From contig JADNRZ010000009.1 in assembly GCA_015501605.1 (NCBI GenBank), forward strand, positions 1,426,001 to 1,490,000: DNA of 64,000 bases, given 5' to 3'. The stretch's first letter is position 1, and each line of letters opens with the position of its first letter. This document shows positions 8,553 through 17,310 of this stretch, in pieces. A model generated the notes under the pieces. The model did no database searches and was not told where the DNA came from. It saw only the letters and a program-made list of their open reading frames with translations. This DNA comes from Panaeolus papilionaceus. Lineage: Eukaryota > Basidiomycota > Agaricomycetes > Agaricales. A program made the position numbers and the translations under genes.

Positions 8553-9969
8553 ATGCGACGCAAAATCACTCAGAGCTCATTACCAGACTCATTAATTCCA
8601 CATCTATACTCGGCTCCTCAACAACCTGCTCCCACTTTAAATCACAACGACGACGACGACAACGACGATGAAGACGACAGAAGGCAACTTCAACCTGATC
8701 AAAATAATATACGTCTTCAAGGTCCTTCAGTAGCACCACGTCCAATTTATTCAGATCCAATGTTTTATTCTTCAAATGCTCGTTTACCTTCCATTGCCAG
8801 GCGTGGTTCAAGCTTACCACCTCCACCACGTTTAACACCACCTCCAGCACCTTTGTTACAGCAGCAGAATCAGCTTCATCACCAACTTCATCATTCCTAT
8901 CATGATCGTCCACTTCCACCTCCTCGTGCTTTCTTGAGAGATTATGAAGATTCTTATACTTCATCTATGCCAGCTCTAGCATCCCTTTCCATCTCCGCTC
9001 CGACAGCTTCATCATCTGCTTTTTCTAGATTCCCAGACAGTCCGGAATCTCACCAGCCAGAGGATTCCCATAGACCTAATACCCCCACCAATAATCCCCG
9101 GGACGGTTCTAGGAAAGGGAAGAAACGAAAGAGTTCTCCTGACCCCGATGATGACAACACTAGGAAATCGAGGAATCCTAGAAAGACTCTCGTCGCTTGC
9201 AATTTCTGCCGAGGTAAGTAAATCCTATCTCTTTTACATCCTCATTTCAAAACATAAATCTATTCTTACATACCTTTTTACCATTTTTTTCCTTTTCCTT
9301 TTCCTTTGGTTTTTCTCACCCCAATCAACCTTAATCTGTCCAGGTCGTAAACTTAGATGTAATGGAGCGAGACCTGCTTGCTACAATTGTTCCATTCGAA
9401 ACGCAAAGAAATGTGAATACGTTCCTGTTCAACGACGTAGAGGTCCAGGTAGAGCTCCAAGGGGTAGTCGCGCCAGAAGAGCCGGTCAAGCTGCTTCGAG
9501 GGCTTCTCAATCTGCCTCGAGGTCTGACCCTGCTGTTTCCACAACGGGATCTTCCAACATTACATATGAACTCGAAACGTTAGCACCTGAAGTTCGACCA
9601 TATACATCGGTCATGACATTCGATCCTCCAAATACTACATTCACTTTTCGACCTCCGACACCGCCACGTCAACCACCTCCACCTCCACCACCTTTACCAC
9701 AACCCACCCAAGCTGGACCATCATCTGGTCAGATTTCACAACATTCACAACATCACTTTTCGTTTTCATCTGGGTTTCATCAATATATTCAACAACATCC
9801 GCACAATTCTACTCCTCAACACCAGCAGCAGCAACATCAACACCATTATCACAATGATCCTTATCATCATCATGGTCGTACCCCCCGAAGTCAAGAAACA
9901 AGCTCTGAAGATTTAGAAGATCGGTCGGAAATTGACGAATTCTATAGACGACGACGATACGGATCATAG
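8553..9969 (+). CDS. Zn2Cys6 (Gal4-type) transcription factor
   Basis: Fungal binuclear zinc-cluster regulator of 428 aa in two exons (8553-9213, 9344-9969; 130-nt intron). The DNA-binding cluster lies in the middle: six cysteines from C216 to C244 with spacing C-X2-C-X6-C-X6-C-X2-C-X7-C, starting ACNFCRGRKLRCNGARPAC and followed by a strongly basic Arg/Gly linker. The N-terminal half is low-complexity (Asn/Asp/Pro/Ser/His) with a basic stretch just before the cluster. The C-terminal half is Pro-, Gln- and His-rich, as in activation regions. There is no fungal-specific TF middle domain. The intron splits the codon after CNFCR, exactly as in both clusters of the downstream hybrid gene. DNA targets cannot be read from the sequence. 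Confidence 0.9.
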
Positions 9970-10774: not shown

Positions 10775-13700
10775 ATGAACCCTTCTGATCATAGGCTTCG
10801 TCACGACGACCAAGATCGCTCTCTACCGCCATACTCATCCACCCCGCACATAACCCCAGGTACTATCATCATCTTTGCTTCCGTCTCGGCAACATACTCA
10901 TCCTCATCCTCCCGCTCAACAAAAAGACATTACTCGTCCAGAATTTAACCTACTCGTCGCTGGATGTCGAGGAGGTATGTCTTTATAAAATACTAAAATT
11001 CTTATCTACTCTTGATTTAACAAATAATTTCCTTCTAATTTTCAACATTTACGCTCGGATCAGGCAAAACCTCGTTTCTCCGCCTCCTCCTCGACACGAG
11101 TATCGTCTCTCCCAGAACCTCTAAAGACCAGCTAGCATCCGTCGCAAAGTTTGTACAGGGTTGCAGTGCACATACCACTTATATTCGTTCGGCTTCGGTG
11201 GACATCAACCTAGACATTGATGGCTCCGGACAGCAGCGTACTTTGGGCCTCACCTTGATTGACACACCTTCGTTAGACTTCAGAGATGAAACCGCAGCAG
11301 AGAGAACTCTTTCAGAGACGATTAGACAGGTCGACGCGCGCTTTGCAGAGGGAGTTGAAGATGTACGCCATTGTTCTTTCTTCCTCATTGTTATCCATTC
11401 TCTTCCTCTCTTTCCCCTATGCATATGATTTATTTTATATTTTAATACTGATTTCTAATCTATCTAGGAGAGACGAGGAAGGACAGGCGATCGTTATGTT
11501 CATTTGTGAGTATGAGCTTGCAACATGCACCTCCTACATTTCCCCACCGATTCCTTGCTCTCCGGAGTCGGGTGGCATATCATTCCATGCCCTGTTCCTT
11601 TCTTTATCTCGGCTTACTCTCTTCATAATCGCACCCTTTTAATCTCTTGAAATCATAACAACTTATTCCGACTCATTTCTTCCTTAGATGCATCTATTTC
11701 CTAGACCCGGACCAAATTATCCCGCCTCCTCCTCCCAATCTCACTGCCCCGCTCATACCCCGCACCCGCGCCAACAGTTTTACCCATCCACAGGATCATG
11801 AACCTGTCATCTTGGAGCCCCCTGTCACTACCAATGTCCGAGCTACGCTCCCTCAAGCCGACATCTCGACTATCCGTCGTCTCTCACAGCGCGTCAACGT
11901 CCTCCCGGTTATATCCAGAGGTGACCTCCTTTCCAATGAGCGTCTCGCAGCTGTGAAAGTCGCCATTAGGAGGGACTTGGCGGAGGCTGGAATCGGCTTC
12001 GGCATATTTGACACAGACCCCTTACATCTCCATACTCAACAACAGGGGCCACCTCAGAGGCAAGAAGGGGATGATGGCGGGACCGGTCGTCCGTCGAGCG
12101 CTGGAAGACCTGGTTCGGCCAATGGCTACACTGCACCATATGCAAACGGCGGTGCACCCAATAGCCCGCCCACATCTCCGACGACAACACCATTGCTGCG
12201 TCTTCCATATGCTCTGATATCTCCGGACATGTATTCTCATAGTGATGGCGTCTCGAGGCGGGTTCCTGCCCGCCACGAACTCGTGCAACAGTATACGCCC
12301 TCGACGCTCTATACTCCGCATTCTCAGCTTCCCAGGGGTAAATTCGTTCGTCAATATCGGTGGGGCACCTTGGATGTCCTTGATCATAGCGATTTCATTG
12401 CTCTCCGTACAGCCATTTTTCACCACATGGAGGTAAGTTGATCTAATCATCCATCTATTGCCTCGGATGGGGTATTATCCATCACCGGACGCTCAACTTT
12501 TCTGCTATGTAGACCTTGCAAAAGTATACACGAGAGTATCTGTTCGAAAAATTCAGGATTGAATACGCCAATCTACACCCACGCCCGTCTTCCCGCCACT
12601 CCATCTCCCATCTTTCACACATGGCACAGCCCATGACGCATACTTCTAGACCCATACTCGCCATCGATACTGCTCCTCATCCGCCCTCACATAGGCATTC
12701 ATTATCCGTTCAAGAACACACGCAGCAGCAACGCCAGGGACCACCACCAGCGCAGGCTTCAGCGCAGCCGCAATCTGCGCCGCAACATAGAGAGGTTTAT
12801 TCGGCCGCAGACGTTCGTGCGACGAGCTCCGCCAGCCGTGCGGTCGTAGGTAAGCTAATGTCCCATCTTTCACCTGTCACCGTCGACCCCCCCGAATGGA
12901 TGTTTTTCCTCGGTGTCGTCTAGCGCCACCTCATGTTATTTCTCATCACGGTTTTAAAACATTATGCTAAATCTTTATATTGCGTTGTGATAGGGAGCAA
13001 TAGACAGCGCACGAAGAAGATCACCGTCGCTTGCAACTTTTGTCGTTGTATGTTTTTCCGATGCTTATGACCGCAGACATTCAATTTTGATCCCTGTTGT
13101 TTCTCATCAGCCCGCAAACTGAAATGCGACGGTGGTCGTCCAGCCTGTGGACAATGCGTCAAAAGGAATAATCCTTGCGACTATATGCCTCAGAACACCA
13201 AACGACGAAATATCAGGCAAAGGGTCAGAGGGGATGAGAGTGAGAGTGAGAGTGGCGATGAACGCTCCGCGGAAGCAGACGAACCGTCGCAATCGCCTGA
13301 GATCCCATCACAGACAACTTCACGGCGTAGCTCCAACGTGGGTAGGCACCCACACGATCCCTATCCTCCGTCTTTGCCTTCCATGTCGGCGCTGGCAAGT
13401 CGACGGGATGATGGTCCGTCGTCGTCGGCGCGCCCCAAGATGGACGCTTCGCCTGGGAGTGGCCTGGCAAACAGTGCTGGGCCTAGCACTTCGAATGCGA
13501 CATTGAGCACCGTTGCGAGTGCGAGCCACGGTGGAAGGGGATATTTCCCTGATAATGATGTGCCGCATATCGCGACGCTACCGTTGGAAGGGTCGCCACC
13601 GACCCCTGCACCCATGTCCGCCCCTACTCTCCCACCCATAAGGCCAGCTAGCGAGCTGCAGGCAGCACAAAGGAAAAGAGCAGCCACTGTGCCCAACAAG

Positions 13701-14169
13701 AACAGTCGCCAGACGACGAGCTCTGGGCCAAAAGTTGTGGCATGCAACTTTTGTCGAGGTTAGTGTTTTTGGTTATGTACTTTTGATGAGATGCTGATGA
13801 GATGGTATAGCCCGAAAAACCAAGTGCGATGGAGCCCATCCGGCATGTGCGAGTTGTGCGAGGAGGCAGCTAGACTGCAATTATGTGCACGACACGAATA
13901 ACGGGGCCAATGGTTCTGGACAGAAAAAGGCCAGGAGAGCATCGACCTCCAAGGGACTTGTTACAGACAATTCCCCGCAATCAGCGTCTCCGCCTTCTTC
14001 GAGGATGATTCCTACTCCCTCTACGGCCAACGACGTGCATGAAATCCGCGAGCTCGGTGATGCGCAGTTGAAAGCTGAGGACATGGACTTGAAAAGGCCC
14101 ATGAGTTATACTGATAACAGACCCTCGAAGAGAATGAGGATGGATCACAACCTTGCTGGTATACCCTAA
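10775..14169 (+). CDS. Hybrid septin-like G domain with two Zn2Cys6 clusters
   Basis: Nine exons join into one open frame of 870 aa: 10775-10859, 10927-10974, 11064-11362, 11468-11505, 11688-12432, 12513-12849, 12994-13047, 13111-13758, 13811-14169. All introns are GT-AG. Residues 35-430 are a septin-type G domain close to the gene at 14999: P-loop region AGCRGGKTS, LIDTPSLDF (111-114 DTPS), VISRGD (233-236) and the septin-unique RQYRWGTLDVLD. A Gln/Pro/Ser linker follows, then Zn2Cys6 cluster 1 (C531-C558, CNFCRSRKLKCDGGRPAC), a 190-residue disordered spacer, cluster 2 (C747-C774, CNFCRARKTKCDGAHPAC) and a basic tail. Compared with septins, one P-loop residue is missing and DTPG is DTPS. Alternative reading: two genes, with a regulator starting at the ATG at 12619. 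No stop or promoter-sized gap separates the parts, so I favour a fusion, unproven without transcripts. Confidence 0.72.
12850..12993 (+). other. 144-nt intron at the septin/zinc-cluster junction
   Basis: Donor GTAAGC at 12850 and acceptor TAG at 12991-12993 join the linker to the first zinc cluster in phase 1. If the intron is retained, translation continues for about two dozen codons and stops at 12921-12923, giving a septin-only product without either cluster. This is the only place where the two halves could be separated by splicing. Confidence 0.7.
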
Positions 14170-14998: not shown

Positions 14999-17310
14999 AT
15001 GTTCTCTTTCCGTCGTAAACCAAAGAAGGCACCAGACTCTCCTGGCATTCGCACCTCCCCATCGTTACCAGAGCTCAATCCGCAAGGTATCCCCTGGCCA
15101 GAAGACCTTGTCGACATTAATGCTATCCGTGACGACGAAGGTCAAGAGGCTCCCGGAACACCTGTAACTGCCAATGGCAAAGTCTCTTTCCAAACCGATA
15201 ATGGTACTATACCATTCCACAAGCCTTTCCGTCCGTCGTTGGGCACTAAACCTGGGGAACATGTGCCCATTTCGTCGCTTTATGCCTCACATCCGCCATC
15301 CTCGTTCGACAAGAAGGTTCCGCCTCATTCGACAACTCGCTATAGTCAAAGGAGAAACCGTATTCCACCTACCTTCAACCTAATGGTGCGTTTCTCGTTT
15401 TCTGGTCGTGATTTGGGCGCGTTTGATGCTGACTATGTTATTCTTGTCTTTGTCTAAATTGATCTTCGGTGGATGTGCGGTGCTGGGTTTTCGTTAATTA
15501 AATGGATACTGGGGTGTTGGTTGCCATCTTGCGGTGTCGTACTTGGTTGACATCTTTTGGATGGATCTTATTACTATTAGGTCGTCGGTGGGAAAGGAAC
15601 GGGAAAGACGTCTCTGCTGCGTCTGCTGCTCGAAACGGCCGACACATCTCCTGGTGCCACTGTTGACCAAAAGGCCGCTGTTGAAAAGTTCCTCAAAGGG
15701 ACCACAAAGTCAACTCAGGAGATCACTACGGCATGCGTCGAAATTTGCGAATCGCGCTTCGACCGCGTTTTGTTCTCCGTGATTGATACCCCAGGTCTCG
15801 ATTTCTTGGAAGGCAGGGAGCTGAAGCTTGAGAGGCAAGTCAATACCGTTCTCAAGTATGTCGACGCACAGTATGCCGATACGATGAGTGAGGTAGGGCC
15901 CTATTCTCCGGTCCCGTGTGCAGTGTCTAAGATATTTCTTATCTAGGAATCCAAAGTTATTCGAAAGAGCAAGGGAGACCAGCACATCCATCTGTGCGTG
16001 TTTATACTTTCATACTGTTGAACTACTACTCACCGTGCCACAGGTCCATCTATATGATTGACCCAAATTCCATCATGACTGCTGAATCTCGTAGTGCCCT
16101 CTCCTCGCTTCATCCCACTAAAACTCGCTCCGAGTCCACCGTAGCTAATGGAAACCCTCCGGACCTGGTTCCTGATACCTCGAGCGAGCAAGAAGACGAC
16201 GAAGATGAAGAGCAGACAGAAGTTTTGACCATGTCTCCTGCTGAAATACGTGTCATCAGAAGGCTCTCGGCAAGAACAAACGTGCTACCTGTCATTGCTC
16301 ATGCGGACTCACTGACGGACGAAAAGCTGATTGCGGTCAAGAAAGCAGGTGGGTTCAATTAAAATTTCTTTTATAACCTGTTTTGCTTTTATTTCAAACG
16401 TAATACGACACTGAGCTTACTCTACTTTGCTTTTTTGATTACATTACACTCTTTTAGTGCGTAAAGGACTTGCTGACGCAGGGATTGATTTTGGTGTATT
16501 TGGTCCTGTTAAGAAGCCTTCAAAAGCGACGACACCCAAGAGACAAACCCATTTTGCAACACCCGGTGAAGAAAATGGAAACGGTCATGCAAACGGTGCC
16601 AGCGAAGATATTGCAGAGGTCGACGAGGAAGAGGAAGAAGAAGACAGGCAGTCTCGGCCTGTAATCAAACTTCGCTCCAATCGTCATGGACGGGCGCTTT
16701 CCCGCTCCCGTTCTCGACGAGACTTGTCACTTGCAGCTGAAGACTCTCGACGACCCATCTCTCCTGATGCAAATGACATGGAAAGTGTTGCAAATGTCCG
16801 ATTTTCGGCACACATCGTCTCCAAAACCGACATCAGCGCCCTGATGCCCTTTGCACTTATTGCTCCTGAACCCAAGAGCCGTCGACCCCGACCCACTTCT
16901 CCCGACAGTACAACGTCACCCGCTACTCCCACGCAACAATCTGAAGATGGGCATGCCGAGAACGGAGGCAAGGCTGCATCTGTCAGAAACCAGTTCCTGC
17001 AGAATCCTCCACAGGACCTCAAGGGTGTTTTCACAAGAAAGTTCAGATGGGGAACTGTGGACGTCTTGGACCCTAATCACTGTGACTTCGCTGCCCTCCG
17101 AACAGCTGTCTTGTCTACTCATTTGAATGTAAGCTAGCCGTTCACACTGTCAGCTCGAGGACACTAACCTAATAATGTCTGTTTCAGTTGCTCAAAATTC
17201 ACACCAAGGAAGTACTCTATGAGGCATACAGGACGGAGAAACTGCTGGCACGTCGTGCCACCCGCGCCATATCTGAGGAAGAGAGGCAGCGATTGTTGGA
17301 AGGTTTGTAA
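14999..17310 (+). CDS. Septin-like GTPase
   Basis: A 614-aa septin-type G protein in six exons: 14999-15385, 15581-15892, 15947-15993, 16044-16348, 16458-17128, 17188-17310. Septins are filament-forming cytoskeletal GTPases of the cell cortex. Motifs: P-loop VVGGKGTGKTS (G132-T139), VIDTPGLDF (198-201 DTPG), VIAHAD (334-337; classical septins have AKAD), and the septin-unique RKFRWGTVDVLDPNHCDF before the end. An acidic, low-complexity insert interrupts the G domain around residues 285-310, and a second charged insert follows G4. It has no long C-terminal coiled coil, unlike the CDC3/CDC12 groups, so it is probably a divergent septin. An extra 65-nt intron at 17303-17367 could replace the last residues with a short tail ending near 17387. 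It is the clear paralogue of the G domain in the upstream hybrid gene. Confidence 0.88.

Follow-up and report, generated by a model that had tools for sequence, protein, structure and literature searches.

The 64,000-nucleotide stretch of the Panaeolus papilionaceus genome analyzed here (contig JADNRZ010000009.1, positions 1,426,001 to 1,490,000; hereafter the window) carries, at positions 10775–14169 of its + strand, a gene that encodes a septin-derived G domain followed by two Zn2Cys6 zinc clusters. It is flanked on the same strand by a septin gene downstream and a one-cluster Zn2Cys6 gene upstream. Splicing and translation of 10775–14169 reproduced the nine canonical exons and the single uninterrupted frame of the initial annotation, from the ATG at 10775 to the stop codon ending at 14169, with eight introns that are all of the GT-AG type; the length of 870 codons given there was corrected to 865 (a protein of 865 amino acids).

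In detail, exon 1 (10775–10859) contains the start codon and encodes a poorly conserved N-terminus, exon 2 (10942–10974) the first half of a shortened P-loop (FNLLVAGCRG) and exon 3 (11064–11362) the GKTS of this P-loop as well as the G3 position (DTPS, 11261–11272). Exon 4 (11468–11505) is a microexon of 38 nucleotides, both flanking introns of which coincide in position and phase (0, 2) with introns of the neighboring septin gene. The G4 position (SRGD, 11914–11925) and the septin element RQYRWGTLDVLD (12349–12384) are located in exon 5 (11688–12432). Exon 6 (12513–12849) joins the last septin helix, TLQKYTREYLFEKF, to the linker in one frame without an intervening stop codon, and includes the linker motif SRPILAIDT (12645–12671). 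Zinc cluster 1 (13032–13047 and 13111–13178) begins in exon 7 (12994–13047) and is completed in exon 8 (13111–13758), which also encodes the inter-cluster region and the beginning of zinc cluster 2 (13743–13758), whereas exon 9 (13811–14169) provides the remainder of this cluster (to 13878), the tail and the stop codon. The protein thus combines a septin-derived G domain (approximately residues 29–417) with two Zn2Cys6 clusters, the connecting linker being long and probably disordered.

Both domains were recognized by Pfam well above the respective cut-off, which bears out the domain order proposed initially: Septin with 96.8 bits (cut-off 26.2, E 1.7e-27) in three stretches, and Zn_clus with 68.4 bits (cut-off 21, E 5.7e-19) in two. 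At E-values up to 1 these were the only domains found, and no Fungal_trans domain was detected. A database search with the whole protein returned 192 matches, and the best 120, which were listed, all carry PF00735 as well as PF00172. The closest of those listed is from Panaeolus cyanescens (Agaricales; 85% identity), and seven of the listed species span the Agaricales, Boletales, Russulales, Polyporales, Gloeophyllales, Jaapiales and Atheliales, i.e. at least seven agaricomycete orders. According to the cysteine pattern, exactly two clusters are present in 103 of the 120 listed fusions, one in 14 and three in 3, and some of the proteins deviating from two clusters are merged gene models. The names under which some of these proteins are filed ("GTP binding protein", "Septin-like protein spn3" or "Cell division control protein 11", for example) give no hint of their DNA-binding half.

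In addition, six records from short contigs (longest contig 2345–5153 bases) contain frames that extend without interruption across the septin element and both clusters. Of these, P0010 and P0030 are practically complete, another three set in a little upstream of the septin element, and P0088 starts near the P-loop, with apparently unspliced sequence. As the same stretch contains four introns in the window, these frames most likely represent spliced complementary DNA (cDNA). The label lgn on the short-contig records presumably denotes assembled read archives.

The suggestion that two genes or transcripts were united only on paper, through exon prediction, deserves attention because gene finders do merge neighbors at this locus: P0001, P0008 and P0013 combine the fusion with the downstream septin, P0018, P0026 and P0090 combine it with an upstream zinc-cluster gene, and three short-contig records (P0242, P0243, P0280) show zinc-only frames beginning inside the linker. 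The junction lies, however, within a single open exon, and the six short-contig frames cross it in other species. The hexamers AATAAA, ATTAAA, TATAAA and AATATA and runs of eight T were not found within 12350–13150; each of the intergenic stretches flanking the fusion gene contains three of these hexamers and two T runs. A further search was performed with the zinc-bearing tail, using a length filter which excludes most full-length fusions, and of the 111 proteins obtained 23 had both Pfam labels, one had Septin only and 87 had no Septin label. Among the latter, eight proteins are named by species or order. The Grifola protein P0291 starts in the last septin helix and is therefore a cut-short model of the same fusion. 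Suillus lakei P0321 has 244 amino acids and one cluster, Serendipita P0327 is marked partial and has two clusters, Auriculariales P0330 begins inside zinc cluster 1, Coniophora P0337 has one cluster, Fusarium P0340 and Russula P0341 are weak matches, and Schizopora P0329 is the eighth. No clean, separate ortholog was present among the 23 rows of this search that were examined (10 of them by Pfam). Many of its rows of 210–320 amino acids resemble individual exons translated from genomic contigs.

Taken together, the open junction exon, the short-contig frames and the tail search led us to reject the two-gene reading, to which we attach hardly any credence. Since merged models and zinc-only records explain neither the six through-running frames nor the junction exon, we regard it as practically certain that the septin–zinc-cluster fusion is real and forms a single protein.

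The G domain of this protein departs from septins at several positions. Its P-loop is one residue shorter than that of the neighboring septin (VAGCRG-GKTS versus VVGGKGTGKTS), and with three instead of four residues between the glycines GCRGGKT does not conform to the septin G1 pattern GxxxxGK[ST] (PMC1931588). The short P-loop is also found in orthologs; 41 of the 120 listed rows failed the search pattern, some of them lacking the stretch or reading GKS. We take GCRGGKT to fit only the looser Walker pattern A-x4-GKT. At G3, DTPS replaces DxxG, the serine being present in 69 of 70 orthologs, whereas the neighbor has DTPG in 106 of 120 listed sequences. The G4 pattern xKxD is likewise not preserved (SRGD in the window; R in 61, K in 4 and D in 69 of 70 orthologs; ARAD in 92 and AKAD in 12 of the 120 listed fusions), but this is a weak test, as the neighboring septin itself has ARAD in 55/120 and AKAD in 10/120. 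A polybasic stretch precedes the P-loop of the neighbor (mean net charge +5.1; 85/120) and is absent from the fusion (mean net charge -0.6 over 20 residues; 68/120 measurable); according to PMC6323724, this region is poorly conserved in Group 3 and Group 5 septins as well. Other septin features are retained. The septin element with its WG has W in 69/70, G in 67/70 and an arginine in 70/70 orthologs along with a nearly invariant histidine, and PMC6323724 describes the G4 aspartate and the arginine, tryptophan and histidine of the septin element as conserved across all septin groups.

The predicted structure of the fusion protein P0002 has a mean predicted local distance difference test (pLDDT) value of 55.6 and a predicted template modelling score (pTM) of 0.48, with G-domain blocks mostly at 75–97 and linkers below 50, suggesting that the linkers are probably disordered. 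All 50 rows listed by Foldseek for this model are septin entries, and the G domain has the septin fold (VIA Z up to 24.6, first non-septin 13.1). Beyond residue 425 the model contains no helix of more than five residues. Because its sequence deviates from the septin patterns at G1, G3 and G4 and lacks the polybasic stretch, we did not class the domain as a septin proper; it appears to be septin-derived and may still hold nucleotide.

Both zinc clusters show the six-cysteine pattern C-X2-C-X6-C-X5-12-C-X2-C-X6-8-C (PMC7295025), the cysteines being present in 69 or 70 of 70 orthologs. Cluster 1 gave sequence matches to GAL4, HAP1 and PUT3 chains, and a lysine is nearly invariant in both clusters. 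This lysine presumably occupies the DNA-contact position of Gal4 K18. In the first linker, the motif SRPILAIDT is well kept among the 70 orthologs (I in 70/70, P in 69/70) and is a possible docking motif. The basic C-terminal end of the consensus (KKMR-like, judged by eye) could serve as a nuclear signal.

The neighboring septin gene (14999–17310, + strand; six exons, 614 amino acids, P-loop GGKGTGKT, DTPG), which is not mentioned in the initial annotation, explains where the G domain came from. The two proteins are 39% identical over 268 aligned residues, and the genes have three introns in common in position and phase (0, 2, 0), two of which bracket a microexon of 38 or 47 nucleotides. This stretch is uninterrupted in all five other septin loci found by a Pfam Septin search of the genome, a comparison that covers two of the three shared introns. 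In a phylogeny of 37 G domains, the 17 fusions fall into a single clade (100/100), and a split with 100/99 support separates fusions and neighbors from the five other septins; the group of neighboring septins is weak by bootstrap (63/99). Judged from introns and tree, the septin part of the fusion is a tandem duplicate of the downstream septin gene.

A search with the neighboring septin gave 385 matches, and the best 120, which were listed, are all labeled Septin, none of them with a zinc-cluster label in addition. Between the 120 fusions listed, with 116 distinct contig sizes, and the 120 neighbors listed, with 97, there are 63 shared contig sizes above 5000, which we read as contigs holding both genes and thus as a sign that their order is old. 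In addition, fusion and neighbor have consecutive locus tags in 11 of 13 species picked by eye for sequential tags in both lists.

The upstream one-cluster Zn2Cys6 gene (8553–9969, + strand; modeled with two exons, 8553–9213 and 9344–9969, and a provisional start) has a Gln/His/Pro-rich tail. In the merged models P0018, P0026 and P0090 a similar cluster precedes the fusion, and the cluster of the upstream gene is 68–74% identical to these extra clusters compared with at most 59% to the remaining rows of the 25 compared. That the zinc part was captured from this gene is only a suggestion. The zinc-cluster intron was dropped as proof of such a descent: four matches in other parts of the genome start at position 7 or 9 of the profile, like the second halves of the fusion's clusters, so that the intron position is not special.

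A single frame, its conservation, the tandem origin, the kept fold, the altered G1 and G3 and the absent polybasic stretch are the observations on which an interpretation can be built. A single event preceding the divergence of the sampled agaricomycete orders is the most likely origin of the fusion: the adjacent septin gene would have been duplicated and the copy linked to a part coding for zinc clusters, perhaps similar in type to that of the upstream gene. Judging from residues only, the product would be a nuclear, sequence-specific DNA-binding regulator, the two clusters of which would read CGG-type half-sites. The G domain would no longer be a membrane-bound filament subunit or a switching GTPase; it would instead mediate dimer or oligomer formation, determine in this way how many clusters come together and at what spacing, and thereby replace what we take to be the coiled coil of other zinc-cluster proteins. 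We consider it slightly better than an even bet that the protein is, as a whole, such a two-cluster DNA-binding protein with a septin-derived oligomerization platform, probably not at the membrane. The platform had been one of two functions proposed initially and is compatible with the kept septin fold, as seen in a monomer model. The other, a coupling of filament or membrane state to transcription, has lost ground with the absent polybasic stretch and the departures of G1 and G3 from the septin motifs.

Several points weigh against this interpretation. The P-loop lysine and the G4 aspartate, each present in 69/70 orthologs, favor kept nucleotide binding over a dead pocket, and the structure, being a monomer model with a mean pLDDT of 55.6, is silent on oligomerization. 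The tree carries a long-branch warning, with the five other septins used as outgroup filling only 29–35% of the columns, the idea that the upstream gene supplied the zinc part is no more than a suggestion, the intron position not being special, and the zinc-only records P0242, P0243 and P0280 represent either truncated cDNA or a shorter product.

The kept fold and the retained cross-group septin residues (G4 aspartate, and arginine, tryptophan and histidine of the septin element), together with an obvious partner in the neighboring septin, could also be accommodated by a tethered regulator, the septin part of which would still join septin assemblies of the cortex or septum, keeping the zinc part there until a change in assembly releases it or signals to the nucleus. 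We rank this reading second and consider it rather unlikely, given that G1 and G3 are altered and the polybasic stretch is absent, although no search for an amphipathic helix was made. The lack of a fungal-specific transcription factor domain in Pfam at E up to 1 would, on the other hand, suit zinc clusters that, instead of acting on promoters, bind proteins or RNA or have a structural role within a cytoskeletal protein; this is improbable in view of the cysteines and of the lysine at the presumed Gal4 DNA-contact position, which are nearly invariant in both clusters. Beyond the platform reading, one may tentatively imagine a nucleotide-bound septin-type domain, self-assembling or pairing with the neighboring septin, that switches or spaces the two clusters on DNA and was fixed before the sampled orders split, but we doubt that all of this will hold.

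Septins are known from membranes and the cell cortex, zinc-cluster proteins from the nucleus. A fusion of the two, hardly studied so far, that is conserved across many mushroom-forming fungi and still adjoins its parent septin allows the idea that a cytoskeletal domain has been recruited to DNA to be tested, and is a candidate regulator in this group of fungi. Should the septin-type domain indeed switch or space the clusters, the septin system would be connected to gene expression directly, at the molecular level, by a hybrid widespread in agaricomycetes.

Contrary to the initial statement that no such fusion had been described, PMC7295025, the only paper found to report the fusion in the open literature searched, describes a protein of Pleurotus ostreatus, PoZCP55, in which septin domains are combined with two zinc clusters at the C-terminus. 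PoZCP55 is mentioned at three points of that paper, namely the sentence on its domains, the tree of 66 zinc-cluster proteins, in which it forms its own clade, and the list of C-terminal zinc clusters; these passages give no origin, conservation or mechanism. By this description the window protein is of the PoZCP55 type, as a septin part precedes two C-terminal Zn2Cys6 clusters in both; the three septin domains credited to PoZCP55 (PMC7295025) have their counterpart in three Pfam stretches of one interrupted G domain. A Pleurotus pulmonarius protein (P0029) shows 53% identity to the window protein, 99% of which is covered by the alignment. The passages available from PMC1931588 mention no septin–zinc fusion, and the word "zinc" is absent from the main texts of PMC6323724 and PMC11238149. 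The domain makeup of PoZCP55 was therefore known already, whereas the conservation, the tandem origin and the decay of the G domain were not found described in open-access papers, to which our search for accounts of the family's spread, origin or G domain was confined, subscription papers being outside its scope.

With septins (Cdc3/10/11/12; Group 5 AspE type) the fusion shares the G-domain fold, the motif order, the septin element with WG and the G4 aspartate; it differs by the G1 shortened by one residue, DTPS at G3, the absent polybasic stretch, the added zinc clusters and, in the model, the lack of helices longer than five residues after residue 425. Gal4-type regulators (GAL4, PUT3, HAP1) have C-X2-C-X6-C-X6-C-X2-C-X6-C clusters like the fusion and presumably the same lysine at the DNA-contact position. 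Unlike them, the fusion has two clusters per chain, located in the C-terminal half, no Fungal_trans domain, and a septin domain where we would expect a coiled-coil dimer element. Core septins of filament-forming hetero-oligomers that became pseudoGTPases (PMC10731463) resemble the fusion in their substitutions in conserved GTPase motifs and differ in not being joined to a DNA-binding part. The G domain of the fusion looks like a further case of this kind.

The neighboring septin has long inserts as well as stretches that are acidic or rich in SR, and FSFRRK is conserved at its N-terminus; its predicted structure (mean pLDDT 51.9) was not used. The prolines immediately before its P-loop (RIPPTF) are reminiscent of the proline that PMC1931588 describes for Group 5, a lead only, as is the possibility that this septin is of the AspE (Group 5) type and that fusion and neighbor both belong to Group 5. 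Finally, the fusion-type record P0088 and the neighbor-type record P0192 both have a longest contig of 5153 bases, which, if it is cDNA, would point to possible co-transcription of the two genes.
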